Assembly (NCBI RefSeq): GCF_900078705.1
Contig: NZ_FKIF01000006.1
Span: 930,001-994,000 of the forward strand
Length of the DNA stretch: 64,000 nt
Reading direction: 5' to 3'
Source: Bordetella ansorpii
GTDB lineage: Bacteria; Pseudomonadota; Gammaproteobacteria; Burkholderiales; Burkholderiaceae_B
Position 1 is the first letter of the stretch; each line of letters opens with the position of its first letter. Positions 374 through 12,717 of this stretch are shown one piece after another. Under the pieces are notes generated by a model. That model searched no databases and had not been told where the DNA came from. It saw nothing but the letters and a program-made list of their open reading frames with translations. Both the position numbers and the translations under genes were made by a program.

Positions 374-436
374 GGGACTCAATCTCAAAATCCCCCGCCG
401 CAAGGCGTGCCGGTTCGATTCCGGCCTCGGGCACCA
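374..436 (+). other. 3' part of tRNA-Leu (CAA), probable island attachment site
   Basis: Bases 384-436 match the second half of a class II leucine tRNA: anticodon loop CTCAAAA (anticodon CAA), the 3' side of the anticodon stem, a short variable arm (GCCGCAAGGC), the T arm with GGTTCGATTCC, the acceptor strand CTCGGGC and an encoded CCA. The 5' acceptor strand (GCCCGAG), D arm and most of the 5' half are not found upstream, so it cannot make a tRNA by itself. The 5' side has GGGACTCAAT followed by CTCAAAAT, as if the loop were partly duplicated by recombination. Such 3' tRNA fragments are typical att repeats left by tyrosine integrases. Confidence 0.75.
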
Positions 437-610: not shown

Positions 611-687
611 CCTTTCTGAAGAGCATATGAAGCTTACGGCCAAGCAATGCGCGGTGGTCTTTACCTACGCCTGCGCCGGCCGAACGC

Positions 688-789
688 ATGACCGCCGAAG
701 CGGCGCTGGCCCGCTACCTCAAGGAAGTCACGCCCACCAAGCTGGCGTCGACCCACACTGGTGAACACAGGAAAGCGCGGGTCATCATC
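688..789 (+). pseudogene. Remnant of a second tyrosine integrase (core-binding domain)
   Basis: About 33 codons read MTAEAALARYLKEVTPTK and then RKARVI, with the composition and spacing of the SAM-like core-binding domain of tyrosine recombinases (typically a 'tl.eal.rYl.evtptk....e..r.r.l' pattern). The frame then runs into unrelated sequence, with no catalytic domain. It faces right, away from the tRNA-Leu fragment, opposite to the intact integrase start at 206. It is therefore probably left over from another element inserted at the same tRNA. Identification rests on pattern recognition of a short segment. Confidence 0.5.
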
Positions 790-897
790 CGGCATCCTGG
801 TTGCCTGTTTTCTCGACAAATCCCCAAAAAAACCCACCTTGTAAAAGACGGTCGCCCGTTGACGGTTCTCCGACCCATCACTCCGACAGGGGGATCC

Positions 898-1357: not shown

Positions 1358-2476
1358 GTGGGAAATTGGTCGTTGAGAGATAAAGCCTGCATGGTGGGAG
1401 TCGGCACCACTGACTATGGAAGCTTCCCGGACACGGACGCTTATGGCCTTGGCGCGATTGCCCTGAACCGAGCGCTCGACGACGCGGGGCTTCGCCACGA
1501 CGAGCTCGACGGACTGATCGTGTGCAGGATCCCGTCCTATGAGCGGTTTGCAGAGATCACGCGCCTGAATCCGCAGTACTGCCACCAGATGGAAGCGCCC
1601 GGCCGCTTCTCCGGCGTGTCGCTGATGCTGGCCGCGCAAGCCCTTGCTACCGGCGCGGCGAAGAACATCGCCCTCGTCTACGCCAACAACGGGCGGTCGG
1701 CAGGCGCCACCTATGGCGGCAACGAAAGTGCGTTGTGGGCGCCCTGGGGATTCACCTCGCCTGGCGCATCCCACGCGATGATGTTCCGGCGACACATGGA
1801 GCAGTTTGGAACGTCGTCGGAAGACTTGGCGCACATCGCGATGGCCATGCGCAGGCATGCCACCTTAAACCCGCAAGCCGTGCGGCGCGACCCCATGACG
1901 GTGGCCGATCATCAAAACTCCCGGTACGTGTGCGACCCGCTACGCCTGTACGACTATTGCCAAATCAATGATGGAGGGGTCGCCTGGATCATGACGACGG
2001 CAGACCGGGCGAAGGACCTGCCCAAACGTCCGGTTTATGTATCCGGCTTCGCACGCCAAGACGCGTTCACACACGCCTCGCTGCCGCCCGACGACTATTG
2101 GTATCCAGAACTTCAAGAGGTATCCCGCCTGGTCTACCAGCGTGCCGGTATCGATCGCGAAGCCATCGACGGTCTGATGATCTACGACAACTTCACGCCC
2201 ACGGTGCTGTTTTCGCTGGAAGGGATGGGATTCTGCGATCAAGGCGAGGGAGGCGCGTTCGTACGCGACGGAATGCTCGAACTCGGCATCGGGCGGTGGC
2301 CCACCAACACGTCAGGCGGCCACCTTTCGGAAAGCTATATGCAAGGCTGGGCACTAATAGCCGAGATGGTGCGGCAACTGCGAGGGGAGTGTGATGATCG
2401 CCAGATTCCCGACTGCCAAGCCCTCCAGTACATCTGCGCCACCAACATCGCGCACTCGATCATTCTGAGGAACTAG
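1358..2476 (+). CDS. Thiolase-fold protein, possible acyl-CoA aldolase partnered with DUF35
   Basis: The 372-residue protein has the thiolase fold signature of the SCP-2/acetyl-CoA acetyltransferase-like group: N-terminal MVGVGTTDYG near residues 12-21, and a C-terminal NTSGGHLSESYMQGW region near 316-330 matching the thiolase 'N..GG....GHP.GA' loop. The segment where true thiolases carry the nucleophilic Cys reads EAPGRFSGVS (residues 79-88) with no Cys, so Claisen condensation or thiolysis is unlikely. Family knowledge: Cys-less thiolase-like proteins paired with DUF35 proteins, such as Ltp2/ChsH2 in steroid degradation, are retro-aldolases. The next gene is a DUF35 protein five bases away, so an aldolase role is a fair inference. 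Translation starts at GTG 1358 after AAGGGAA; the first downstream ATG (1391) would cut conserved sequence. It is the first gene of an operon running to 8299. Confidence 0.8.
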   Translation: MGNWSLRDKACMVGVGTTDYGSFPDTDAYGLGAIALNRALDDAGLRHDELDGLIVCRIPSYERFAEITRLNPQYCHQMEAPGRFSGVSLMLAAQALATGAAKNIALVYANNGRSAGATYGGNESALWAPWGFTSPGASHAMMFRRHMEQFGTSSEDLAHIAMAMRRHATLNPQAVRRDPMTVADHQNSRYVCDPLRLYDYCQINDGGVAWIMTTADRAKDLPKRPVYVSGFARQDAFTHASLPPDDYWYPELQEVSRLVYQRAGIDREAIDGLMIYDNFTPTVLFSLEGMGFCDQGEGGAFVRDGMLELGIGRWPTNTSGGHLSESYMQGWALIAEMVRQLRGECDDRQIPDCQALQYICATNIAHSIILRN

Positions 2477-2481
2477 CAGCC

Positions 2482-2898
2482 ATGTCTTACGATAAACCCA
2501 TGCCCCTGATCGACGTCTGGAACCGTCCTTTCTGGGAGGCCTGCCGCGAGGGCCGGCTTATCGCTCAGAAGTGCCTGCAGAGCGGCGAAGTCTGGTTTCC
2601 CCCCGCCCCGATATCGCCGGTCAGCCGTACCGAGCAATGGGAGTGGGTGCATCTATCGGGCATGGGACGGGTGGCGTCCTGGGTTGTCTTTCACAAAGGC
2701 TACTTCAAGGGATTTTCCGCCGAGCTCCCTTACGTCGTCGCTCAGATCGACCTGCAGGAAGGGCCGAGCCTGTTGTCCAACCTGATTGACGTGGAAGCAT
2801 CCGAGATAACCACGGGGATGCCAGTCGAAGTGGTGTTCCAGAATGCTGCCGAGGGCATGCTTATCCCCTGCTTCAAAAAAAGGAAAGATGCGGCATGA
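2482..2898 (+). CDS. DUF35 OB-fold protein, partner of the thiolase-fold protein
   Basis: The 138-residue protein begins with a helix carrying WNRPFWEACREGRLIAQKC. A region where DUF35 proteins have a four-Cys zinc ribbon follows, then an OB-fold with GRVASWVVFHKGYFKGF and PYVVAQIDLQEGP. Only one Cys (in AQKCLQSGEVWFPP) remains of the expected CxxC...CxxC set, so zinc is probably not bound. DUF35 proteins bind acyl-CoA and complete the active site of thiolase-like or aldolase partners. The gene follows the thiolase-fold gene by five bases and its stop overlaps the next start (ATGA), so the three genes are translationally coupled. The catalysed step cannot be read from the sequence. Confidence 0.75.
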   Translation: MSYDKPMPLIDVWNRPFWEACREGRLIAQKCLQSGEVWFPPAPISPVSRTEQWEWVHLSGMGRVASWVVFHKGYFKGFSAELPYVVAQIDLQEGPSLLSNLIDVEASEITTGMPVEVVFQNAAEGMLIPCFKKRKDAA

Positions 2899-3698
2899 GC
2901 ACATCGGCAAAGACTTCGACGGTGGTGGTGGAGGTCGCCGGCCAGGTGGCCACGATCCGGATCAATCGCGCGGACAAGCGCAATGCTGTCGACCAAAGCA
3001 CCCGTCTGGCACTGCTCAGGGCCTTCGACAGCATTCTCGGTCGCTGCACGGCTGTCGTTCTGACCGGTACGGGGAGCGCCTTCTGCGCAGGCGTGGATCT
3101 CAAAGAATCACACGCCATGCGGGAGGCTGGCATGACGCCGGACCCGGCGGCGAGCTGGGAGAAGGTAAACCTGGCCATTCGCGAACATCCTGCGATATTC
3201 ATCGCAGCGGTGAACGGAATTGCGCTGGGAGGCGGCTCGACATTGATCAATGTCTGCGACCTTGCCGTCGCTGCGGAAGATGCACAGATCGGCATGCCGG
3301 AGATCGGCTTTGCCATGTATCCGAAGCTCGCCGGTCCGGCAGGACAGAAAGCGTTGTCTCGCAAGCGTGCTGCCTGGATGATCCTGACGGGCCAGCGTAT
3401 ATCCGGACGAACGGCCGAGTCCTGGGGCATGGTCAATATCTGCTGCCCGGCCGCCGAGGTCCTGGCGCAAGCCCACGCCCTGGCCGAGCAGGTTGCCCGC
3501 TTCGACCCCTTTGCGCTGGCCGAGAGCAAGCGTGCGCTGGACTACATCCCGGATGTCGTCAGCGACTGGAAGCAGATGTTCGACTACGGCGAGAAGGTCA
3601 ACGCCGTCATCCGGGGTGGCACATCGGCGCAACGCGCGGGAATGTCTCGCTTCTTCGAAGGCGAGCGAAATCCCGGCCAGGGGCAAGGACAGGCCTGA
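2895..3698 (+). CDS. Enoyl-CoA hydratase/isomerase (crotonase) family protein
   Basis: The 267-residue crotonase-fold protein has both oxyanion-hole segments: GSAFCAGVDLKE near residues 60-72 and NGIALGGGSTLINVCD near 106-121. In mitochondrial enoyl-CoA hydratase two Glu residues hold the water. The first is kept here (MPEIGF, about residue 136). The second position, before ILTGQRI, is Trp instead of Glu (KRAAWMILTGQRI). The enzyme may therefore be an isomerase, decarboxylase or C-C hydrolase rather than a plain hydratase. Its ATG overlaps the DUF35 stop, and its TGA overlaps the ATG of the CoA-transferase (TGATG at 3696-3700), so it is a coupled member of the operon. Confidence 0.85.
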   Translation: MSTSAKTSTVVVEVAGQVATIRINRADKRNAVDQSTRLALLRAFDSILGRCTAVVLTGTGSAFCAGVDLKESHAMREAGMTPDPAASWEKVNLAIREHPAIFIAAVNGIALGGGSTLINVCDLAVAAEDAQIGMPEIGFAMYPKLAGPAGQKALSRKRAAWMILTGQRISGRTAESWGMVNICCPAAEVLAQAHALAEQVARFDPFALAESKRALDYIPDVVSDWKQMFDYGEKVNAVIRGGTSAQRAGMSRFFEGERNPGQGQGQA

Positions 3699-5908
3699 TG
3701 CGCCCTTTGACAGACATGCTGGTAATAGAGCAGTTCAAGCCCGACAGCCCGGAGGCGCTCCGCCTCGCCTTGGCCATGGCGGGCAGGATCCTGTCGGATT
3801 TTGGCGCCACGGTGCTGCGAATTCAGCCGCGCGACCAGCCCGTCTTCATGCCGGCGCTGAATACCGAAGACGGCATCACGAGTTCCCACGAGGAAGCTTT
3901 CCTGAATGCGGGAAAGCCCAGGGTCCTCGCAAGCGACGACGCGCTTGCGATGCGCGCAGACATCGTCCTGACAGACGACGACACGCTGGATCGTGCCCAC
4001 GCGGACCAGATCGTCGTTCTCGTGAAGTCGGTCCCGGGCGGCCACGCCCTGGAAGGCAAGCGCGTGAGCGAGTTGTGCCTCATGGCGCAGTCCGGGCTTC
4101 TCGACATGGTGGGCGAGCCCGACCGGGAGCCGCTGATGCTGGCGGGTCACCAGCCTGCCTACGCGGCTGGGCTAGCGGCCTTTGCGGCCACGGCGGCAGG
4201 TATCGCGGCGCGTCAGAGCGGCCTCGGTGGCGATATATATACGGTCTGCGCGCTAGATGTATTGGCCTGGATCAACTGGAAGAGTCTCGCAAGCCATCTT
4301 ATCGGCGAGAGCGGGTCGTGCTCGCGCGAAGGCCCGAGTACGGAGTGGCCCGTCCTGCCATGCCGTGATGGATGGGTGGTGCTTGCGTTCACACGTTCCG
4401 ATTGGCATCGCGTCGTCGACATGGTCGGCGTGGAACGGCTTCGAAGTCCGGAGTTCGAAACCGGGGCGGGACGTGCGGCGAGACGAGCCGAGTACATTCG
4501 GATTCTGCGGGAATGGTCCTATGCGATGACGCGGGCCGAGATTCAACTGGCAGCCACCACCTTCGGATTGCCGGTCGCCGTCGTGCTCGATGCGCACGAA
4601 GTGATATCGGATCCGCACAACGTCGCTCGTGGCGTCTTCGAGAAAGACCAGGAACCTGGTGCATTGGCGCAACCCGTTTTGCCGCTGCGCTGGAATGGCG
4701 AACGATTCCTGCGGCGTACTCGGCCGGAGAACGCATCGGCGCTGGACACGCGCTGCGCGCCAGCGACGGCGCCCTCCGTGAAACAGTCGTCTCCGGATGA
4801 GCTTCCCTTGTCCGGATTTCGCGTGCTCGACCTCGGGATATTGACCGCCGGAGCCGGCACCTCGGCGTTGTTGGCCGATGCCGGAGCCCACGTCATCAAG
4901 GTGGAATCTTCCAGGCATCCGGATCCCTTTCGCGGCTGGTCCGATGTCTCGGCCGATGAAGCACGCACGTCCATCTTCTCGTTCTCCAACCGGAACAAGG
5001 ACGGCGTCGAGCTCGATCTCAAGAGTGCGGAAGGTCGAGAGACCTTCTTGAGACTGGTCGAGCGCAGTGACATCGTGGTCGAAAACTTCAGGCGGGGCGT
5101 GCTGGAAAATCTCGGGCTTTCATTCGAGACATTGCGCCAGCGTAACCCGGCCATTGTGCTCGCCTCCATCTCCAGCCAGGGCGAAACCGGACCGGATAGC
5201 AAGAAGCCGTCATACGGCTCGACCCTGGAAGCCCTCAGTGGCATGGCGTCCGCTTGCGGATACGCGGGCGAAGGGCCTCAAGTGTCCGGTCGAAACGTGA
5301 ACTATCCAGACCAGGTGGTCAGCCTTTTCGCAATGGGAGCCGTCACGCTCGCAGCGTTGAGCGCCCGGCGCAACGGTGTGGGCGTGCACCTCGATATTCC
5401 GCAGCGCGACGTCGCGTCGTTTCTGATCGGCGATCGCCTTATGGCGGCACAAGCGGCACGAACATCCGCTGCTACGCGATCCGGCAATTCGAGCCTCTCC
5501 GGCCATCTCCAGGGCTGCTTCAAGAGCGTCGATGGCCAGTGGATCGCCGTCACCGTGCCTGACGGGTCCATACGCAACGGCCTGGCCGGCTTGCTCGGCT
5601 CGAGCGACGTCGACGAAAAGACCTTGCGAAGCTGGATCGCGTCCAAACCGTCCGCCGATGCTCTCGCCACCCTGCAGCAGCTTGGCGCGTCGGCCGCGAC
5701 AGTCGCGAACAACGCGGCGGTCTGTGAAGCCTTGGCGGGCACTACCGCCTCTGCGCTGTCGAGAGCTCCTAATGAAGAGTTGCTGAAGGGATTCCCCTTC
5801 CAGTCGGCGAGGACGCCGTTCGTCGTGCGCAAACTCGCCCCGCGACTGGGGGAGGACACCGCCACGGTACTGCACAACGTGCTGGGCGAATCGGCTCGCG
5901 GTGTCTAG
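3698..5908 (+). CDS. Tandem-domain class III (CaiB/BaiF) CoA-transferase
   Basis: The 736-residue protein is about twice the usual CaiB/BaiF length (near 400) and contains two copies of the fold. The C-terminal copy (from about residue 370) begins LSGFRVLDLG and has VIKVE, NRNKDGVELDLKS, DIVVENFRRGVLENLGL and YGSTLEALSGM. A likely catalytic Asp lies in NYPDQVV (about residue 538). The N-terminal copy (1-345) is recognisable (MRPLTDMLVIEQF, GRILSDFGATVLRIQP, SGLLDMVGEPDREP), but the matching position reads GHQPAYAAG, without Asp, so it is probably structural. Class III enzymes move CoA between carboxylic acids. In this operon it would activate the substrate. The ATG at 3698 overlaps the preceding TGA; the frame is open further upstream but that part lies inside the crotonase gene. 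Confidence 0.85.
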   Translation: MRPLTDMLVIEQFKPDSPEALRLALAMAGRILSDFGATVLRIQPRDQPVFMPALNTEDGITSSHEEAFLNAGKPRVLASDDALAMRADIVLTDDDTLDRAHADQIVVLVKSVPGGHALEGKRVSELCLMAQSGLLDMVGEPDREPLMLAGHQPAYAAGLAAFAATAAGIAARQSGLGGDIYTVCALDVLAWINWKSLASHLIGESGSCSREGPSTEWPVLPCRDGWVVLAFTRSDWHRVVDMVGVERLRSPEFETGAGRAARRAEYIRILREWSYAMTRAEIQLAATTFGLPVAVVLDAHEVISDPHNVARGVFEKDQEPGALAQPVLPLRWNGERFLRRTRPENASALDTRCAPATAPSVKQSSPDELPLSGFRVLDLGILTAGAGTSALLADAGAHVIKVESSRHPDPFRGWSDVSADEARTSIFSFSNRNKDGVELDLKSAEGRETFLRLVERSDIVVENFRRGVLENLGLSFETLRQRNPAIVLASISSQGETGPDSKKPSYGSTLEALSGMASACGYAGEGPQVSGRNVNYPDQVVSLFAMGAVTLAALSARRNGVGVHLDIPQRDVASFLIGDRLMAAQAARTSAATRSGNSSLSGHLQGCFKSVDGQWIAVTVPDGSIRNGLAGLLGSSDVDEKTLRSWIASKPSADALATLQQLGASAATVANNAAVCEALAGTTASALSRAPNEELLKGFPFQSARTPFVVRKLAPRLGEDTATVLHNVLGESARGV

Positions 5909-5966
5909 CAGACCCGGCCGGCGGCTCGAACCAAGACAAAACACGACCTCATGGAGGAGACAACTC

Positions 5967-7145
5967 GTGGAACAGATCTCAACACCCTACACCTACTATC
6001 GTGGTGGCACGAGCAAGGCCGCGATTGTGCTGCGAAGCGATCTTCCCGTCGAGGACGAAGCGCAACTCGAAGCATGGATACTGGCGATCTACGGTTCACC
6101 AGACCGTCGCCAGATCGACGGCATTGGCGGGGCCGACATTTTGACCAGCAAGTTCGCGGTGGTGGGCCCGTCCACACGTCCCGACGCGGATGTGGACTAC
6201 ACCTTCTACCAGGTCGACATCCTGACTGCAGCCGTACACCGGGGATTGAACTGCGGCAATATCTCTGCCGCCATCGGCCCCTTCGCCATTGACAGCGGCC
6301 TAGTGCAGGCAACCGATCCGGTGACGCCAGTGCGGATCCACGCCACCAATTTCGGCAGGGTCATACATGCGCTCGTGCCGACGCTCAACGGCCGCGCCCG
6401 CGTCAGCGGCGACACGAAGATCGACGGCGTGCCGGGAACGGGTGCCGCCATCGAGCTTGATTTCCGCGATACGGTCGGAGGCCTCACGGGCGCGCTTCTC
6501 CCCACTGGAAATGTCGTCGACCTAATCGCAGTCGATGGGGTCGGGTTGGTGGAGATGAGCATCGTCGATCTCGCGAATCTCGTTTGCTACGTGCGCGCCG
6601 AGACGCTGGGGCTGGAAGGAACCGAGGATCCGGTCGCCTTGGCTGGGGATGCCGCGTTGATGGAGCGTTGCGAGCGCATACGCCTGGCTGTCGCGGCCCA
6701 ACTGGGCATCGCGCCCGACTTCGAAACCGCGCTCGCCAAGCCACCCGCCACGCCGTGGCTGGGCATCGTGTCGCCACCGAAGGCGTGGCGCAACTTCGCT
6801 ACGGGTGCACAGCATCCCGCAGACGCCTGCGACCTGGCCGCACGCCTGTTCACTCGACGCAACATCCACAAAGCCTATCCAGGGACAGGCACCGCATGCC
6901 TGGGCGTTGCGGCGGCCATTCCCGGAACCATTCCAAACCAGATCGCGCCGTCAGCGCAGCGCGAAGCCAGCGTGCTGCGTATCGGACATCCATGCGGCGT
7001 CATTACGGTGAAGGCGGATGTGCAACGCGCCGAAGACGGTGCGTTGCACATCGGTCAAGCGAGCTTCACCAGAACGGCGCGGCGAATCGCCGACGGTAAC
7101 GTGTACGCCGCCGTGGACCGCCTTGCCTGGCTATCGGGAAGCTAG
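5967..7145 (+). CDS. PrpF-family isomerase (methylaconitate/oxalomesaconate type)
   Basis: The 392-residue protein belongs to the PrpF family (diaminopimelate-epimerase-like fold), with the hallmark YYRGGTSKA near the N-terminus, DRRQIDGIGGADILTSK and NCGNISAAIGPFAI. Characterised relatives catalyse allylic isomerisation of unsaturated tricarboxylates: 2-methylaconitate in the methylcitrate cycle and 4-oxalomesaconate in gallate degradation. I chose the GTG at 5967, which has GGAGGAG (5953-5959) seven bases upstream. An ATG at 5901 would overlap the CoA-transferase and add 22 residues not typical of the family. It sits without AcnD, prpC or gallate genes, among acyl-CoA enzymes and a carboxylate receptor. 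Its substrate here is therefore open, but an unsaturated di- or tricarboxylate is likely. Confidence 0.85.
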   Translation: MEQISTPYTYYRGGTSKAAIVLRSDLPVEDEAQLEAWILAIYGSPDRRQIDGIGGADILTSKFAVVGPSTRPDADVDYTFYQVDILTAAVHRGLNCGNISAAIGPFAIDSGLVQATDPVTPVRIHATNFGRVIHALVPTLNGRARVSGDTKIDGVPGTGAAIELDFRDTVGGLTGALLPTGNVVDLIAVDGVGLVEMSIVDLANLVCYVRAETLGLEGTEDPVALAGDAALMERCERIRLAVAAQLGIAPDFETALAKPPATPWLGIVSPPKAWRNFATGAQHPADACDLAARLFTRRNIHKAYPGTGTACLGVAAAIPGTIPNQIAPSAQREASVLRIGHPCGVITVKADVQRAEDGALHIGQASFTRTARRIADGNVYAAVDRLAWLSGS

Positions 7146-7324
7146 ACGCCCGATCGTTCATCTCAAGGCGAACGACAAACCAAGGACTCGCGCCCAGCAG
7201 CGCCGCATCAGTCTAGCAGTGGCGGTTCTCGCCGCCGGCGCTGAGAACAGGCTCCGGGGCAACGTTTTATTAACTGAAGAGAAACACGAGTTTCCAGGTC
7301 TTTCCAATCAAAGGAGGCAGTCAA

Positions 7325-8299
7325 ATGTTGAGCAAATTTTTCTTCGCCCTGGCGTTAGCAGGTGTCCTCGGCTCTAGCCCCGCAGCCCACGCGGCGTCGT
7401 GGCCGACGCAGTCGGTACGCCTCGTGGTTCCGTACGCCCCTGGCGGTATTGCGGACACTATCGCGCGCGGCGTAGCGGAACGTATGGGGGAGTCGCTCCA
7501 CCAGACCGTCATCGTCGAGAACCGGCCCGGCGCAAATGGAATCATTGCCGCGAGCTTCGTCAGTCGTACACCCGCCGATGGGTACACGCTCTTGTTCGCC
7601 AGCGATTCGATAAACGTATTGAATCCGCTGCTGCACAAGAATTTGAGCTACACGTTCAAAGATAGCTTCACGACGATCGGAGAAGTTGGTGCATCGCCAT
7701 TTGCTCTAGTGGTCAACGCAGCCCTGCCCGTCAAGAACGTCAAGCAATTCGTTGAGTACGCCAAGGAGCGACCGGGCAAACTCAACTACGCTTCCACCGG
7801 CATTGGCGGTGCCTACCATCTGGCCGGCGAACTCTTCGCCGATCAGAACGGGCTCAAGCTCACCCACATTCCGTACAAAGGGGGTAGCGAGTTCGTTTCC
7901 TCACTCATCACGGGCGAGACCCATGCAGTCTTCGGCGCGCTCCAGACTTTCGGCCCTCAAATCGCAGCCGGCAAGCTGCGCGCGCTTGCCATTGCCTCGG
8001 ACTCCCGCCTGGCCAACTTTCCCGAGGTTCCCACCTTTGCAGAGGCAGGGTTTCCCAACTACGCCGCCCAGGCGCGATTTGGTTTGATCGCCCCCCATGG
8101 CGTCAGCCCTGAAATCGTGAAAAAACTCGCAACAGCGCTTAATCACGCGCTGTCGGACCCTGGCTTTCGAGCGCCTTTTGAACAGCAGGGCATGGCCGTT
8201 CGCACCAGCACGTCGCCAGAGGCCTACCGCGAAGCCACCGAGTCCGATGCGAAACAGTGGTCTGCGCTGATACACAAGCTCAAGATCACCCTCGACTAG
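7325..8299 (+). CDS. Tripartite tricarboxylate (Bug/TctC family) periplasmic receptor
   Basis: The 324-residue protein has a cleavable signal peptide (MLSKFFFALALAGVL...AHA, cut near residue 23) and the full Bug-family pattern: VRLVVPYAPGGIADTIAR, VENRPGANGIIA, LNYASTGIGGAYHLAGELF, THIPYKGG and the 'P.V.TF.EAGFP' C-terminal segment. Bug receptors bind small carboxylates in the periplasm. Only some work with TctAB membrane partners, and none is found here. A strong Shine-Dalgarno AAGGAGG (7311-7317) precedes the ATG. It follows prpF after 179 bases, so it may have its own promoter while serving the same pathway. The likely ligand is the substrate of the upstream operon (inference). Confidence 0.9.
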   Translation: MLSKFFFALALAGVLGSSPAAHAASWPTQSVRLVVPYAPGGIADTIARGVAERMGESLHQTVIVENRPGANGIIAASFVSRTPADGYTLLFASDSINVLNPLLHKNLSYTFKDSFTTIGEVGASPFALVVNAALPVKNVKQFVEYAKERPGKLNYASTGIGGAYHLAGELFADQNGLKLTHIPYKGGSEFVSSLITGETHAVFGALQTFGPQIAAGKLRALAIASDSRLANFPEVPTFAEAGFPNYAAQARFGLIAPHGVSPEIVKKLATALNHALSDPGFRAPFEQQGMAVRTSTSPEAYREATESDAKQWSALIHKLKITLD

Positions 8300-8310
8300 A
8301 GATCCGCGAC

Positions 8311-9063
8311 CTAGGCCGAAAGCGATTCTTCAATTTCGCGCTTTGCGTTCTGGAGCGCCTGCAGGATTGCCGGTTCGCGCTCGCCAGTCATCCGCTCGGT
8401 GATTCCCACCACCGACAGGCTGGCCACAGGACGACCGGAGCTCGACATCAGGGCCACAGAAATCGTCCAGGCGGCCTCCGTCGTGGCGGTGCGCTGGGAG
8501 GCGTAGCCTGCCTCCCTGATTCTCTCGATAGCCGCCACGACCGCGGTTTCGCTCAGCCCGCGCTCTGCGCAGCGATCGAGATTCTTCGTGACTATCGTGC
8601 GCCACTCAGCCTCTGGCAACGCAGCAAGAATGACCTGTGTGCCGCCCCCGACGCCCAATGGACGTCGGGCTCCTTCCTCCACCGTCACGACCTGCACCGG
8701 GTAATCCCCTGAGACTCTACGTAAGCACAGGCAATCAAGGCCATCCCTCACGCTCATCATGACCGTATTGTCAGTTTGTCGCACAAGCGACTGCAGGAAC
8801 GGCTCGCAGATGGAGCGCAGATCGAACGGCGTCGACGTCACGCTGGCAAGTTCGTAAATCAAAGGTCCTAGGTGAAAGCGTTTCCGATCTTTACCCGTGG
8901 CCAGGAAACCTGACGCGGCAAGCGCTTTAAGAACCCTGTGAACGGTGGCCTTGTCAAGAGCAGTGAGGTTGACGACATCGACTTGGCGTAACCCCTTTCG
9001 ATTATGTTCGGCGATTTGGCGCAATATAAGTGCTATGCGCGCTGGACCGTTCTGGTCGTGCAT
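8311..9063 (-). CDS. IclR-family transcriptional regulator
   Basis: The 250-residue protein has an N-terminal winged helix (residues about 5-65, ALILRQIAEHNRKGLRQ, DKATVHRVLKALAASGFL) and a C-terminal GAF-like IclR effector domain, with RRPLGVGGGTQVILAALPEAE near 140-160 and ISVALMSSSGRPVASLSV near 205-222. IclR proteins usually control catabolic operons and bind the pathway's substrate or intermediate. The gene converges on the Bug receptor gene, with only 11 bases between their stops, and closes the catabolic block. Control of the 1358-8299 operon is the natural inference, although no operator is assigned. Confidence 0.9.
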   Translation of the reverse strand: MHDQNGPARIALILRQIAEHNRKGLRQVDVVNLTALDKATVHRVLKALAASGFLATGKDRKRFHLGPLIYELASVTSTPFDLRSICEPFLQSLVRQTDNTVMMSVRDGLDCLCLRRVSGDYPVQVVTVEEGARRPLGVGGGTQVILAALPEAEWRTIVTKNLDRCAERGLSETAVVAAIERIREAGYASQRTATTEAAWTISVALMSSSGRPVASLSVVGITERMTGEREPAILQALQNAKREIEESLSA

Positions 9064-9148: not shown

Positions 9149-9901
9149 ATGGGCCGCATCGTCCTGGTGGCCGACGCCGACAGCGGCACGCCCGCCAAGA
9201 CCGCCCGCGATGAGCTGGAGACGCTGGTGCGCAAGGACGTGAAGTCGGGCGGCGGTCCGCTTGCTTTCTCAACCGGCTTGGCCGATGCCTTGTTCCCCGG
9301 CACGAAGCAACGCGTGTTGAGGTTGTTGTTCGGCCAGCCCGAGCGCAGCTTCTATGCAAAAGAGTTGATAGGCCTGATGCGAAGCGGTTCGGGAGCCGTA
9401 CAATGCGAAATCGCCACGCTGACCGCCAGCGGCCTGGTCACCGTCAAAACGATCGGCAACCAGAAACACTACCAAGCCAATCCCGCCTCCCCCATTTTTG
9501 CGGAATTGCAGGCGATCGTACGCAAGGCAATTGGGTTGGCCGAATCCATTCGTAATGCATTGACCTGCGTCGCCTCACGAATAGAGGCTGCATTCGTCTA
9601 TGGCTCGATCGCGAAGGGCACCGACACGGCTCGTAGCGACATTGATCTGATGCTGCTGAGTGACACGCTGAGCTACGGAGGTATTTTCGCGGCCCTCGAA
9701 GGGACCAACGATGTGCCTGGCCGCCCCGTGAATCCGACCATCCTGACACGGTCTGATTTCGTCAAACGCATTGCCGCGCACGAGTCCTTCCTGACTAGAG
9801 TCTTGGAGCAACCCAAGATCTGGATCATCGGAGGAAACCATGATCTCCCCACTGGAAAATCTCAGCGGACCGGGCAAACCGTTAAAGATCGGGCCGCCTG
9901 A
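9149..9901 (+). CDS. Winged-helix/nucleotidyltransferase protein (MntA-like antitoxin)
   Basis: The 250-residue protein has a winged-helix segment (about residues 45-115: FPGTKQRVLRLLFGQPERSF, QKHYQANPASPIF) followed by a minimal nucleotidyltransferase domain with the metal-binding motif FVYGSIAKG...SDIDL (about 150-169). Minimal nucleotidyltransferases next to HEPN genes act as antitoxins: MntA adds AMP units to the HepT RNase. Here the domain carries its own DNA-binding part, suggesting autoregulation. The first 40 residues (GRIVLVADADSGTPAKTARD...) do not look like the family. The frame stays open upstream to a stop at 9125, and a GTG at 9239 could be the true start. The C-terminal end overlaps the downstream HEPN gene by 62 bases. 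Confidence 0.8.
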   Translation: MGRIVLVADADSGTPAKTARDELETLVRKDVKSGGGPLAFSTGLADALFPGTKQRVLRLLFGQPERSFYAKELIGLMRSGSGAVQCEIATLTASGLVTVKTIGNQKHYQANPASPIFAELQAIVRKAIGLAESIRNALTCVASRIEAAFVYGSIAKGTDTARSDIDLMLLSDTLSYGGIFAALEGTNDVPGRPVNPTILTRSDFVKRIAAHESFLTRVLEQPKIWIIGGNHDLPTGKSQRTGQTVKDRAA

Positions 9902-10273
9902 TCCACGTGAGCTGGAAGGACTGAAACGTTCTGGTCTCGCCAAACTGCAAGACGCACTGAGCGCGCCGCTAACCCTGGAAAGCCGCTTCGATTTGGCCTA
10001 CAACGCCGCTCACGCACTATGCCTGGCTGCAATGCGAAGGTGCGGTATCGCCCCAGCCATCGCTACGTCGTATTCCAGCTATTGCCACAGACGCTGGATC
10101 TTGGCCCCGGAGTCTGGCGAGTGCTGTCCAAGTGCCACGACATACGCAACCTCGGCGAGTACGAGGGCAATCTGAATATCGACGATCGCATCGTGACCGA
10201 TCTCCTTATTGCCTGCCAGGCCGTCGCTCAAAAAATCGAAGCGCCAAGTCCGCTGGGCACGGTCGAATCGTGA
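9840..10273 (+). pseudogene. HEPN-domain protein (HepT-like), broken by a frameshift
   Basis: Two frames together give one HEPN protein of about 144 residues. Frame one (9840 on) reads MISPLENLSGPGKP to SRFDLAYNAAHALCLAAMRRCG. The second frame takes over near 10042-10046 with YRPSHRYVVFQLLPQTL, then SKCHDIRNLGEYEG and the stop at 10273. Homologous proteins read straight across this point ('...LRW.GYRS.NRY.VFQ.L...'), so one base is missing in or near TGCGGTATCG (10041-10050). The predicted RNase feature is the conserved RFDLAYNAAH helix. A GGAGG at 9832-9836 precedes the ATG. It pairs with the upstream nucleotidyltransferase gene. The product is probably non-functional unless the shift is a sequencing error or is bypassed. 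Confidence 0.75.
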
Positions 10274-10403: not shown

Positions 10404-11876
10404 TTACGCCGAAGACGGTCCCCTGCGCGCCAGCGTCACGCCCAGTCCCGCCCCGACCGCCAGGCACCCGGCAATACAAAGCACCGCCACCATGAACGCC
10501 CGAACAATTACCTCGGGCTCTGTCCGCCCGCCCATCAGGTTGTAGAAAATCCCGCCGATCACGGCCACGCCAAGCGCCACGCCGATCTGCAAGGTCGACG
10601 TAACCACTCCGGCGATCATCCCCGAATACACGGGCGCCACGCGCCCCGTCACCATCCTCATCAAGCTCGGCATCCCCAGCCCTTGTCCGAAACCGGCGAC
10701 GAACAGGATGATGGCAAGCGGTGCGGCCGCGGGGGCCGTGCCGGCCGGCGCCGCCATGACGAGCCACACCAGCGCCACCATGCCGGCCGCCTCCAGGCCC
10801 AGGCCGACAGGGTTGACGTAAGCGCCAACCCTCCGCCTGAAGAAGGGGGCCGTCAACGGTCCCACCAGATACCCCAGCCCGAACGGCAGGAACACGAGGC
10901 CCGCGCTCAGTGCGGTCGCGTGCAGCGCCTCCTGGAGATAGACCGAGAGCAGCAGGAAAAAGGTGCCCGTGGAATAGAACAGCAGCGCGATCAGCAGCGC
11001 ACGGCCCAGTCCCGGCGCCCGCAGCGCGACCGGGTCGAGCAATGGCGCGCCGCCGGCCATGGACAATCGGGTCTGGTAGCGCCAGAACCCTCTCGCCAGC
11101 ACCGGCACCGCGGCCAGCGACACCCACGACCACCACGGCCAGCCCGCCTCGCGTCCCTCGATCAACGGCACGATCAACGTGGCCAGGGTCACCATCGACA
11201 GCGCCATGCCTCCCAGGTCGGGCTTGCGCGCGTTGGGCGCGCGGGTCTCCTTGAGCAAGGGAATGCCGAACAGCACGACCAGGACCGCCACCGGCAGATT
11301 GACCAGGAAGATCGCGCGCCATCCCAGGCCGAAGAGGTCAAGGGAAATCAGGATGCCCCCCATCGCCTGTCCGATCACGGAGGCCAGCCCAAAGACGGCG
11401 CCATAGATGCTGAGCGCAAGGGGCTTCTCCGATTCCGGAAAGATCGCCTGCACCGAGGCGAGCGCCTGCGGCGCCATCACGGCCGCCGTCACGCCTTGCA
11501 GGGCCCGTCCGGCGACCAGCACCCATGGCGAGCCGGCGAAGCCGCACAGCGTGGACGCGACGGCAAAGCCGATCAGGCCGAGGAAGAACATGCGGCCGCG
11601 TCCGTACAGGTCGCCCAGCCGGCCGCCGGTGGTCAGCGTCACGGCATACAACGCCGCGTACGAGGAAATGACGAGTTGCTCGGCCGAGGAAGAGGCGCCC
11701 AGATCGCCCTGGATGGACGGCAGCGCGACATTGACAATGAAGAAATCGAGCGGCGGCAGGAACGCGCCGACCAGCAGGATCACGAACATCGCCCACCGGC
11801 GCGGCGGCGGCGCGGCGCCCTCGTCGCGGGAGGCGGCCGCCGGCAGGACCGCCGCAGGGCGGGTCGTCGTGCTCAT
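10404..11876 (-). CDS. MFS drug exporter, DHA2 (EmrB/QacA-type) family
   Basis: The 490-residue membrane protein has about 14 hydrophobic segments. The first (WAMFVILLVGAFLPPLDFFIVNVALPSI) carries the 'D...VNVALP' motif of DHA2 transporters, and motif A follows as GGRLGDLYGRGR. These pumps use the proton gradient to export drugs and toxic organics. The start at 11876 has GAGGAG six bases before it and lies 10 bases after the stop of the SDR gene, so the two form an operon. An in-frame ATG at 11942 would overlap the SDR gene. A LysR gene divergent from the pair is the likely regulator. The terminal residues of the exporter abut an IS fragment. Confidence 0.88.
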   Translation of the reverse strand: MSTTTRPAAVLPAAASRDEGAAPPPRRWAMFVILLVGAFLPPLDFFIVNVALPSIQGDLGASSSAEQLVISSYAALYAVTLTTGGRLGDLYGRGRMFFLGLIGFAVASTLCGFAGSPWVLVAGRALQGVTAAVMAPQALASVQAIFPESEKPLALSIYGAVFGLASVIGQAMGGILISLDLFGLGWRAIFLVNLPVAVLVVLFGIPLLKETRAPNARKPDLGGMALSMVTLATLIVPLIEGREAGWPWWSWVSLAAVPVLARGFWRYQTRLSMAGGAPLLDPVALRAPGLGRALLIALLFYSTGTFFLLLSVYLQEALHATALSAGLVFLPFGLGYLVGPLTAPFFRRRVGAYVNPVGLGLEAAGMVALVWLVMAAPAGTAPAAAPLAIILFVAGFGQGLGMPSLMRMVTGRVAPVYSGMIAGVVTSTLQIGVALGVAVIGGIFYNLMGGRTEPEVIVRAFMVAVLCIAGCLAVGAGLGVTLARRGPSSA

Positions 11877-11886
11877 GGCAGGCTCC

Positions 11887-12717
11887 TCAGGCATCGAAAT
11901 CGGTGGCGATGGAGACGTCGCGCCAGGCATCGATGTCTGCACGGAAGGAGGCCAGCTTGTTCTGCGCGATGCGGTGCGCGGCCGGCCCCAGCGGCAGGTG
12001 CAGCGGCGGGTTCTCCGCGTCGATGGCCAGCAGCATCACGGCGACGGCGCGGGCGGGATCGCCCGCCTGCCTGCCGTCATTGGTTTCGCGGTAATGCCGC
12101 CGGGCAGCCCCGGTCTCGGCATAGGCGTCGATCCTGCGCGCGGCGGCGGCCATCGAGCGGCCGAGAAACTCGGTGCGGAAGGGTCCCGGCTCGACGATGA
12201 TCACTTTCGGTCCGAGCGGACGAAGCTCCTGCGCGAGCGCTTCGGAGAGCCCTTCGACCGCGAACTTGGTGGCGTTGTAGTACCCCGACCCCGCCGAGCC
12301 GGCGATGCCCGCGCCCGACGAGAGATTGACGATGCGGGCGCCCGCGCTCGCCCGTAGCGCCGGCAAGGCGGCGCGGGTGGTCTCGATCAGGCCGAACACA
12401 TTGGCCTCGAACACGCGTCGGTACTCGGCGGGCTCCGCTTCCTCGATCGCCCCGATGAAGCCGAAGCCGGCATTGTTGACCAGTACGTCGAGGCCACCGA
12501 ACGCGCTTTGCGCCAGTGCGACGGCGCGGGCGGCATCGCCGGGTCGGGTGACGTCGAGCGCCAAGCGGCGCACCGTGTCGGGATAACGCTCGCCCAATTC
12601 CCGCAGCGAATCCGCGGAACGCGCGGTGGCGACGAGGCGGTCGCCGCGCGCGGCGACCGCCTCGGCCAACTGCTTGCCCAACCCTGTGGAACAGCCCGTT
12701 ATCAACCAGGTTTTCAT
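11887..12717 (-). CDS. Short-chain dehydrogenase/reductase, classical type
   Basis: The 276-residue SDR has the cofactor loop TGCSTGLGKQLAEA (TGxxxGxG) at the N-terminus, the NNAGFGFIGA motif, the catalytic Ser in IVNLSSGAG and YYNATKF (YxxxK), and PGPFRTEF after the active site. It belongs to the group of SDRs that act on small ketones or aldehydes with NAD(P)H; the substrate is unknown. The start at 12717 has GGAGG upstream, whereas an ATG at 12798 would add 27 residues before the Rossmann strand. It is the first gene of a two-gene operon with the MFS exporter and is divergent from a LysR gene. Confidence 0.9.
   Translation of the reverse strand: MKTWLITGCSTGLGKQLAEAVAARGDRLVATARSADSLRELGERYPDTVRRLALDVTRPGDAARAVALAQSAFGGLDVLVNNAGFGFIGAIEEAEPAEYRRVFEANVFGLIETTRAALPALRASAGARIVNLSSGAGIAGSAGSGYYNATKFAVEGLSEALAQELRPLGPKVIIVEPGPFRTEFLGRSMAAAARRIDAYAETGAARRHYRETNDGRQAGDPARAVAVMLLAIDAENPPLHLPLGPAAHRIAQNKLASFRADIDAWRDVSIATDFDA

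Follow-up and report, generated by a model that had tools for sequence, protein, structure and literature searches.

We analysed a 64,000-nucleotide stretch of the Bordetella ansorpii genome (the window; G000:C6:930001-994000, from a host genome of 6.2 Mb in 10 contigs) and focused on six genes on the + strand at 1358-8299, to which an IclR gene on the - strand (8311-9063) is convergent. We propose, with about an even chance of being right, that these genes form a catabolic operon, gained by lateral transfer, through which a branched, unsaturated C4-type dicarboxylate would be degraded by a retro-aldol scheme. The substrate probably belongs to the itaconate/citraconate family and is probably 2,3-disubstituted. 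The gene content observed is as follows:

1358..2476, + strand: thiolase-superfamily protein without a nucleophilic Cys, putative Ltp2-type retro-aldolase (Pfam Thiolase_C_1; PDB; residue alignment)
2482..2898, + strand: ChsH2/DUF35-type OB-fold partner of the aldolase (Pfam OB_ChsH2_C, zf-ChsH2; PDB 6ok1_B)
2895..3698, + strand: putative crotonase-family hydratase (Pfam ECH_1)
3698..5908, + strand: double-length family III (CaiB/BaiF) CoA transferase, 736 aa (Pfam CoA_transf_3, two stretches)
5967..7145, + strand: PrpF-superfamily isomerase, nearest to Mii (Pfam PrpF; PDB 3g7k; AlphaFold/Foldseek)
7325..8299, + strand: Bug/TctC periplasmic receptor (Pfam TctC; PDB)
8311..9063, - strand: IclR-family regulator, convergent (Pfam IclR_C, HTH_IclR)

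A previous sequence-only reading had placed a receptor, PrpF, CoA activation, a crotonase, an aldolase-like pair and an IclR regulator together at this site, and the open reading frames and Pfam matches confirmed it: all of the frames it claimed were open at the coordinates it gave, and each of the seven products had a Pfam match above cut-off. Its gene reading required one correction, as the transferase is a single 736-aa double-length protein (3698-5908) with two CaiB domains in one chain, matched by CoA_transf_3 at 101 and 245.9 bits, both above cut-off. Intergenic spacing is operon-like: the first two genes are 5 bp apart, the next two junctions overlap by 4 bp and 1 bp, and gaps of 58 and 179 bp precede PrpF and the receptor, respectively. 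The likely start of PrpF is the GTG at 5967 behind GGAGGAG, with an in-frame upstream start possible at 5901.

In the proposed scheme, for which we infer every reaction and substrate, the Bug receptor would bind the acid and PrpF would shift its double bond, converting an alkylitaconate to a dialkylmaleate as 3-methylitaconate isomerase (Mii) does. The CaiB-type protein would form the CoA thioester, the crotonase would hydrate the conjugated bond to a tertiary 3-hydroxyacyl-CoA that bears an alkyl group at the alpha position, and the Ltp2-type aldolase with its OB partner would cleave this product, releasing a 2-oxo acid and an acyl-CoA. With 2,3-dimethylmaleate as substrate, pyruvate and propionyl-CoA would result. 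This chemistry would fit, since a hydrated dialkylmaleyl-CoA contains the type of bond that is cleaved by Ltp2. Propionyl-CoA could be used by the host, because a second PrpF of the host genome (L106) groups with methylcitrate-cycle PrpF in our tree.

The best PDB matches of the first gene product were 4u4e (deposited as 'thiolase'; E 1e-57) and 6ok1, Ltp2 (E 9e-55). In an alignment of the window protein with Ltp2, BbsB and 17 fetched relatives, its YDNFT and SESY motifs align with Tyr294 and Tyr344 of Ltp2, so that both Tyr are kept, and its nucleophile segment has no Cys where the thiolases of two plasmid clusters (L031 and L034) carry one. Of the 17 relatives, 11 keep both catalytic Tyr and two are intermediate (Tyr/Phe and Tyr/His); the remaining four show Cys and thiolase-type residues and come from three loci, among which are the plasmid clusters of Cupriavidus necator N-1 and Variovorax boronicumulans. 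In the part of PMC12329534 (2025) used here, Tyr294 of Ltp2 is described as the base and Tyr344 as the acid, and the residue set is suggested to serve hindered substrates, with a C17 hydroxyl and a neighbouring C20 methyl. By these active-site residues we rejected a thiolase identity for the first gene and infer an Ltp2-type retro-aldolase.

The best PDB chain for the OB protein was 6ok1_B, the partner of Ltp2 itself (E 4e-18), and its zf-ChsH2 match in Pfam was barely above cut-off (23.9 vs 23.2 bits). The window pair thus resembles the Ltp2-ChsH2(DUF35) steroid side-chain aldolase (6ok1) in the missing nucleophilic Cys, both Tyr and a DUF35/OB partner encoded next door. It differs in that the aldolase has 36.6% identity to Ltp2 and Asn in place of His296, the zinc-ribbon Cys of the OB protein are mostly lost, and the hydratase is a crotonase. 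A thiolase-fold/OB pair is also common to the operon and to BbsAB of benzylsuccinate beta-oxidation (BbsEF, BbsH, BbsAB); however, BbsB has His at both positions where the window aldolase has Tyr, and the BbsCD dehydrogenase that we presume for that route has no counterpart in the operon. The term 'aldolase-like pair' was correct for the thiolase/OB pair, as judged by the active-site alignment.

PrpF is 47.5% identical to Mii, 41.1% to LigU and 36.6% to Shewanella PrpF. Its PDB match was 3g7k, which is Mii (E 7e-102), and 3g7k was also the first Foldseek match of its AlphaFold model (predicted local distance difference test score, pLDDT, 86.3), so that among PrpF members of known structure it is nearest to Mii by sequence and fold. 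Lys62 and Cys96 are conserved with the Mii, PrpF and LigU references, and we take the Lys/Cys pair to be catalytic in Mii. The equivalent residues of Shewanella PrpF (SoPrpF), K73 and C107, are reported to matter in an excerpt of PMC5690661. Against the NCBIfam equivalog models PrpF scored below both cut-offs, with 247 vs 440.55 bits for 2-methylaconitate isomerase (TIGR02334) and 320.4 vs 440 bits for 4-oxalomesaconate tautomerase (NF033377), its best model there.

These comparisons bear on a tricarboxylate version of the scheme, in which PrpF would isomerise an aconitate-type acid (aconitate, methylaconitate or a homologue) and CoA activation, hydration and retro-aldol cleavage would yield an acyl-CoA together with oxaloacetate (or a homologue of it). 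Relatives of PrpF act on 2-methylaconitate and aconitate, according to the parts of PMC5690661 and PMC4720413 used here, and TcuA, LeuCD and Bug genes accompany other PrpFs of the family. However, the score for methylaconitate isomerase is below cut-off, identity to PrpF is lower than to Mii, and the PrpFs of four TcuA-LeuCD-Bug clusters (L030, L093, L095, L097) fall into a separate clade (support 0.994), although further PrpFs linked to LeuC or TcuA are placed elsewhere in the tree. It can also be argued, as reasoning and not as a result, that aconitate needs no CoA route. We consider the tricarboxylate version quite improbable.

The sister of the window PrpF in the tree was that of Streptomyces spiralis (support 0.995). 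The Streptomyces cluster (L005:563-9832) has a PrpB-like lyase, then PrpF, then a truncated aconitase, with CaiB, acyl-CoA dehydrogenase (ACAD), LysR and RipC-like lyase genes nearby; its lyases, aconitase and PrpF all score below NCBIfam cut-offs. A Yersinia ruckeri plasmid (L029:5635-8093) has PrpF in a row with a LeuD/DmdB small subunit and an aconitase-family gene that is short at its N-terminus.

The crotonase had as its best NCBIfam model PRK09120, hydroxycinnamoyl-CoA hydratase/lyase, at 150 of 276 bits. By rat numbering, for which we relied on a sequence that we assume to be correct, the Glu144 position is kept and the Glu164 position holds Trp, likewise in the homologue from a Chelativorans plasmid. 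The best model would suit a different scheme for a larger acid (a terpenoid, an aromatic side chain or a ring-fission product), in which the aldolase-OB-crotonase trio would shorten a CoA-activated side chain, in the manner of steroid or hydroxycinnamate breakdown, and PrpF would tautomerise a 4-oxalomesaconate-like product. The oxalomesaconate tautomerase model as best match of PrpF points the same way, as do aldolase relatives on two Rhodococcus plasmids, which are surrounded by genes of general catabolism with aldehyde dehydrogenases and major facilitator superfamily (MFS) carriers. On the other side, none of the seven products matched an oxygenase, CoA ligase or aldehyde dehydrogenase in Pfam, and PrpF, besides missing the oxalomesaconate cut-off, is closer to Mii than to LigU. 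We regard the larger-acid scheme as unlikely.

PrpF was surveyed across the family (E <= 1e-75) and found in 52 of 268 genomes, at 56 places including the window. Flanks were fetched for 45 of the 55 other places, with some stretches cut by contig ends. Eight of these 45 loci have two CaiB domains, ECH, ACAD, MmgE/PrpD, an iron-type alcohol dehydrogenase, Bug and IclR, and seven of the eight (L065, L066, L072, L073, L077, L090 and L096; not L071) also have the aldolase and OB genes, the L072 aldolase being cut by the stretch end. About 0.9 loci with an aldolase would be expected by chance (P about 2e-5), under a rough model that treats the aldolase alone, assumes five aldolase-family genes per 5 Mb and applies to loci that are related and not independent. 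The repeated occurrence of this functional set next to PrpF in these relatives suggests a pathway class. In two plasmid clusters (L031 and L034), PrpF, Bug, CaiB, ECH and OB are accompanied by a true thiolase and a short-chain dehydrogenase/reductase, and a Chelativorans plasmid carries the aldolase-OB-crotonase trio at 70, 44 and 52.5% identity to the window.

The gene-neighbourhood search that the sequence-only reading had proposed found the exact six-gene order in no other record searched (best-candidate genome listings, plasmid records and a contig scan). The fused transferase was found only in the host itself, both among 268 family genomes (E <= 1e-60; best four or fewer candidates per listed genome) and among 369 class genomes (E <= 1e-50; best two or fewer); the same was true of the aldolase among 398 phylum genomes (E <= 1e-80; best five or fewer). 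In 72,556 plasmid records there was no fused-transferase match at 60% identity, all PrpF matches were below 60%, and the one aldolase match of at least 60% was that of Chelativorans (70.3%). The contig scan for PrpF, with six peptide patterns, gave 19 loci, the best being Streptomyces at 48%. We found no description of the operon in openly licensed papers, judged by title and the beginning of the abstract, and no published function for the recurring IclR-Bug-CaiB-ECH-ACAD-Fe-dependent alcohol dehydrogenase-PrpF-PrpD cluster in the openly licensed literature.

Among known pathways, itaconate degradation offers one of the closest parallels for comparison of families. MaoC is the family of Ich (itaconyl-CoA hydratase) and CitE that of Ccl (citramalyl-CoA lyase), and neither MaoC nor HpcH_HpaI/CitE was detected among the seven products (Pfam, E 0.001). 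With enzymes missing and NCBIfam scores below cut-off, the itaconate, methylcitrate and gallate pathways were rejected. The earlier description of a CoA-type carboxylate pathway that is none of these three is supported by the absence of MaoC and HpcH_HpaI/CitE and by the PrpF scores below both equivalog cut-offs. The published itaconate/methylsuccinate cluster (Ict-Ich-Ccl with Mcd and Msi), as described in the part of PMC12290011 used here, comprises a CoA transferase, a hydratase, a lyase, an ACAD and an MmgE/PrpD protein; the last two channel methylsuccinate into the itaconate pathway, of which two convergent variants are already known. The proposed scheme resembles it in CoA transfer to a branched dicarboxylate, hydration and C-C cleavage to pyruvate and an acyl-CoA, and relatives of the window operon share its ACAD and MmgE/PrpD families, whereas the window has a crotonase hydratase, a thiolase-superfamily aldolase with OB partner, and PrpF. 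This is a parallel of families and not of proven orthologues. The itaconate cluster has previously been transferred into Pseudomonas putida KT2440 (PMC9875883). In a search for the canonical itaconate cluster, the RipC model exceeded its cut-off in none of 15 genus genomes. Among the 16 flanks taken, that of L145 (G081) came closest, with CaiB, CitE, ACAD, Bug and PrpD but no MaoC match; two loci of the host genome have CitE and Bug only (L142), and CitE, CaiB, ECH, two ACAD and Bug with no PrpD or MaoC match (L143).

A second likeness is to the Mii-DmdAB-DmdC part of nicotinate fermentation in Eubacterium barkeri, whose Dmd steps use an aconitase-type hydratase and a phosphoenolpyruvate mutase/isocitrate lyase-type lyase. 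The window PrpF is nearest to Mii, whose reaction is cited in an excerpt of PMC4720413, and in the operon an acid of this kind would likewise be hydrated and split into pyruvate and a propionyl unit; CoA esters would however take the place of free acids, with crotonase and aldolase replacing the Dmd hydratase and lyase. The operon may add a third route to the two itaconate variants already published. In its specific form, this would be a third convergent itaconate-type route for 3-methylitaconate/2,3-dimethylmaleate, running through PrpF, CoA transfer, crotonase and an Ltp2-type retro-aldolase to pyruvate and propionyl-CoA; it would match the anaerobic Mii-Dmd route at the level of CoA esters and have a rearranged form in other family genomes; so precise a proposal is doubtful.

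Several observations weigh against the dicarboxylate reading. Likeness to Mii is broad among PrpFs: the window protein ranks 6th of 75 in identity to Mii, with five other PrpFs in the tree closer to it and 15 of the 75 reaching 44%, and the deep nodes of the tree are without support (0.0-0.115). The AlphaFold model of the aldolase (pLDDT 48) is too poor for use, and the zinc-ribbon stretch of the OB protein retains one Cys only. All eight relatives carry the Fe-dependent alcohol dehydrogenase, unexplained by the proposed scheme, and the ACAD and PrpD of L077 resemble their counterparts in L145 at a distance only (127 and 134 bits), so that a Mcd/Msi-like role for them is at most possible. In the transferase, the canonical Asp column, which we take to be the family III catalytic Asp, is occupied by Glu in the N-terminal half and by Gly in the C-terminal half. 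The CaiB domain pairs of the eight relative clusters have Asp/Gly in seven and Glu/Gly in L065, and the benzylsuccinate CoA-transferase subunit 9fn0_B is also of the Gly type, a two-part CaiB with one Gly part as in the window; since these proteins share the Gly, a CaiB pair with one inactive-looking part seems normal.

The Chelativorans trio, which is followed by ACAD with no PrpF among its annotated neighbours, adds to these points, and the aldolase module is therefore not tied to PrpF. It also speaks for two unrelated modules (trio plus transferase, and PrpF-Bug) juxtaposed in a genomic island, as do the wider gaps before PrpF and Bug and the stretches where PrpF-Bug occurs without the other reference genes (e.g., L078). 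Against such a juxtaposition, aldolase, OB, ECH, CaiB and Bug occur together at seven of the 45 PrpF loci, well above the chance figure for the aldolase alone, and two plasmids unite PrpF, Bug, CaiB, ECH and a thiolase/OB pair; we judge it distinctly unlikely. Regarding the branched dicarboxylate that we prefer, the 'unsaturated di- or tricarboxylate' of the sequence-only reading is plausible and not settled; nearness to Mii and the itaconate/methylsuccinate parallel favour a branched C4 dicarboxylate, with the breadth of Mii-likeness to be kept in mind.

The 'complete-looking' pathway of that reading is not complete as regards uptake. The receptor matched 2dvz, 5oei, BugD and terephthalate-binding proteins in the PDB. 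TctA had five matches in the host genome, one of them on this contig (C6:435591-436850) and none within the window, so the Bug receptor is an orphan.

Regarding lateral acquisition, the operon has a G+C content of 0.621, vs 0.673 for window 10404-64000, and the following feature lies to its left:

402..436, + strand: attachment-site copy (3' end of tRNA-Leu), right end of a ~66-kb element, with an exact second copy at G000:C6:864030-864064

Between the exact tRNA-Leu 3'-end copies lies a ~66-kb integrated element (G000:C6:864064-930402), which ends at window 436 and carries a tyrosine integrase (L105:13854-15206) and, by eye, a ParB-like frame. From the exact copies and the adjacent integrase it follows that the element ends directly left of the operon. 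In two genomes of the same genus the flanking core genes are conserved, and some 7 and 10 kb lie in the slot that runs from tRNA-Leu(CAA) to the MFS gene (window 10404-11942); the fused transferase was not found in these two genomes among the matches listed in the 268-genome family search. Given this variable cargo without the fused transferase, the operon is probably cargo of a tRNA-Leu integration hotspot.

Several other features were observed. Window 673-800 resembles, by eye, a broken integrase N-terminus, which is also present in same-genus genome G079 (L130:14226-14353, 88%), between tRNA-Leu and variable cargo. Window 9149-10175 encodes a nucleotidyltransferase-domain protein (Pfam Polbeta, NTP_transf_2) followed by a small frame without a Pfam match, possibly an MNT/HEPN-type pair; the MntA antitoxin model gave the nucleotidyltransferase 28 bits vs a cut-off of 60. 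The tRNA-Leu(CAA) at L131:8741-9064 (G000:C6:863741-864064) has a 237-nt intron that splits the anticodon loop (ARAGORN intron mode), with a weak Rfam group I intron match (18.7 bits vs gathering 50, E 0.039), and a cut copy of its 5' exon is at L131:8518-8555. Near-full-length copies of the intron-tRNA were listed at 83 places in the 268 family genomes (78-100% identity), two of them in G000, including G000:C9:72068-72401; the tRNA type is assigned at the C6 locus only.

In the literature surveyed, thiolase-superfamily retro-aldolases with DUF35 partners have been characterised on steroid side chains. The operon and its relatives suggest that Ltp2 chemistry may also act on small branched dicarboxylates, and they provide a concrete, testable gene set. 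The proposed scheme would further assign a function to a PrpF subgroup that is mostly annotated as 'PrpF domain-containing protein' in plasmid records.

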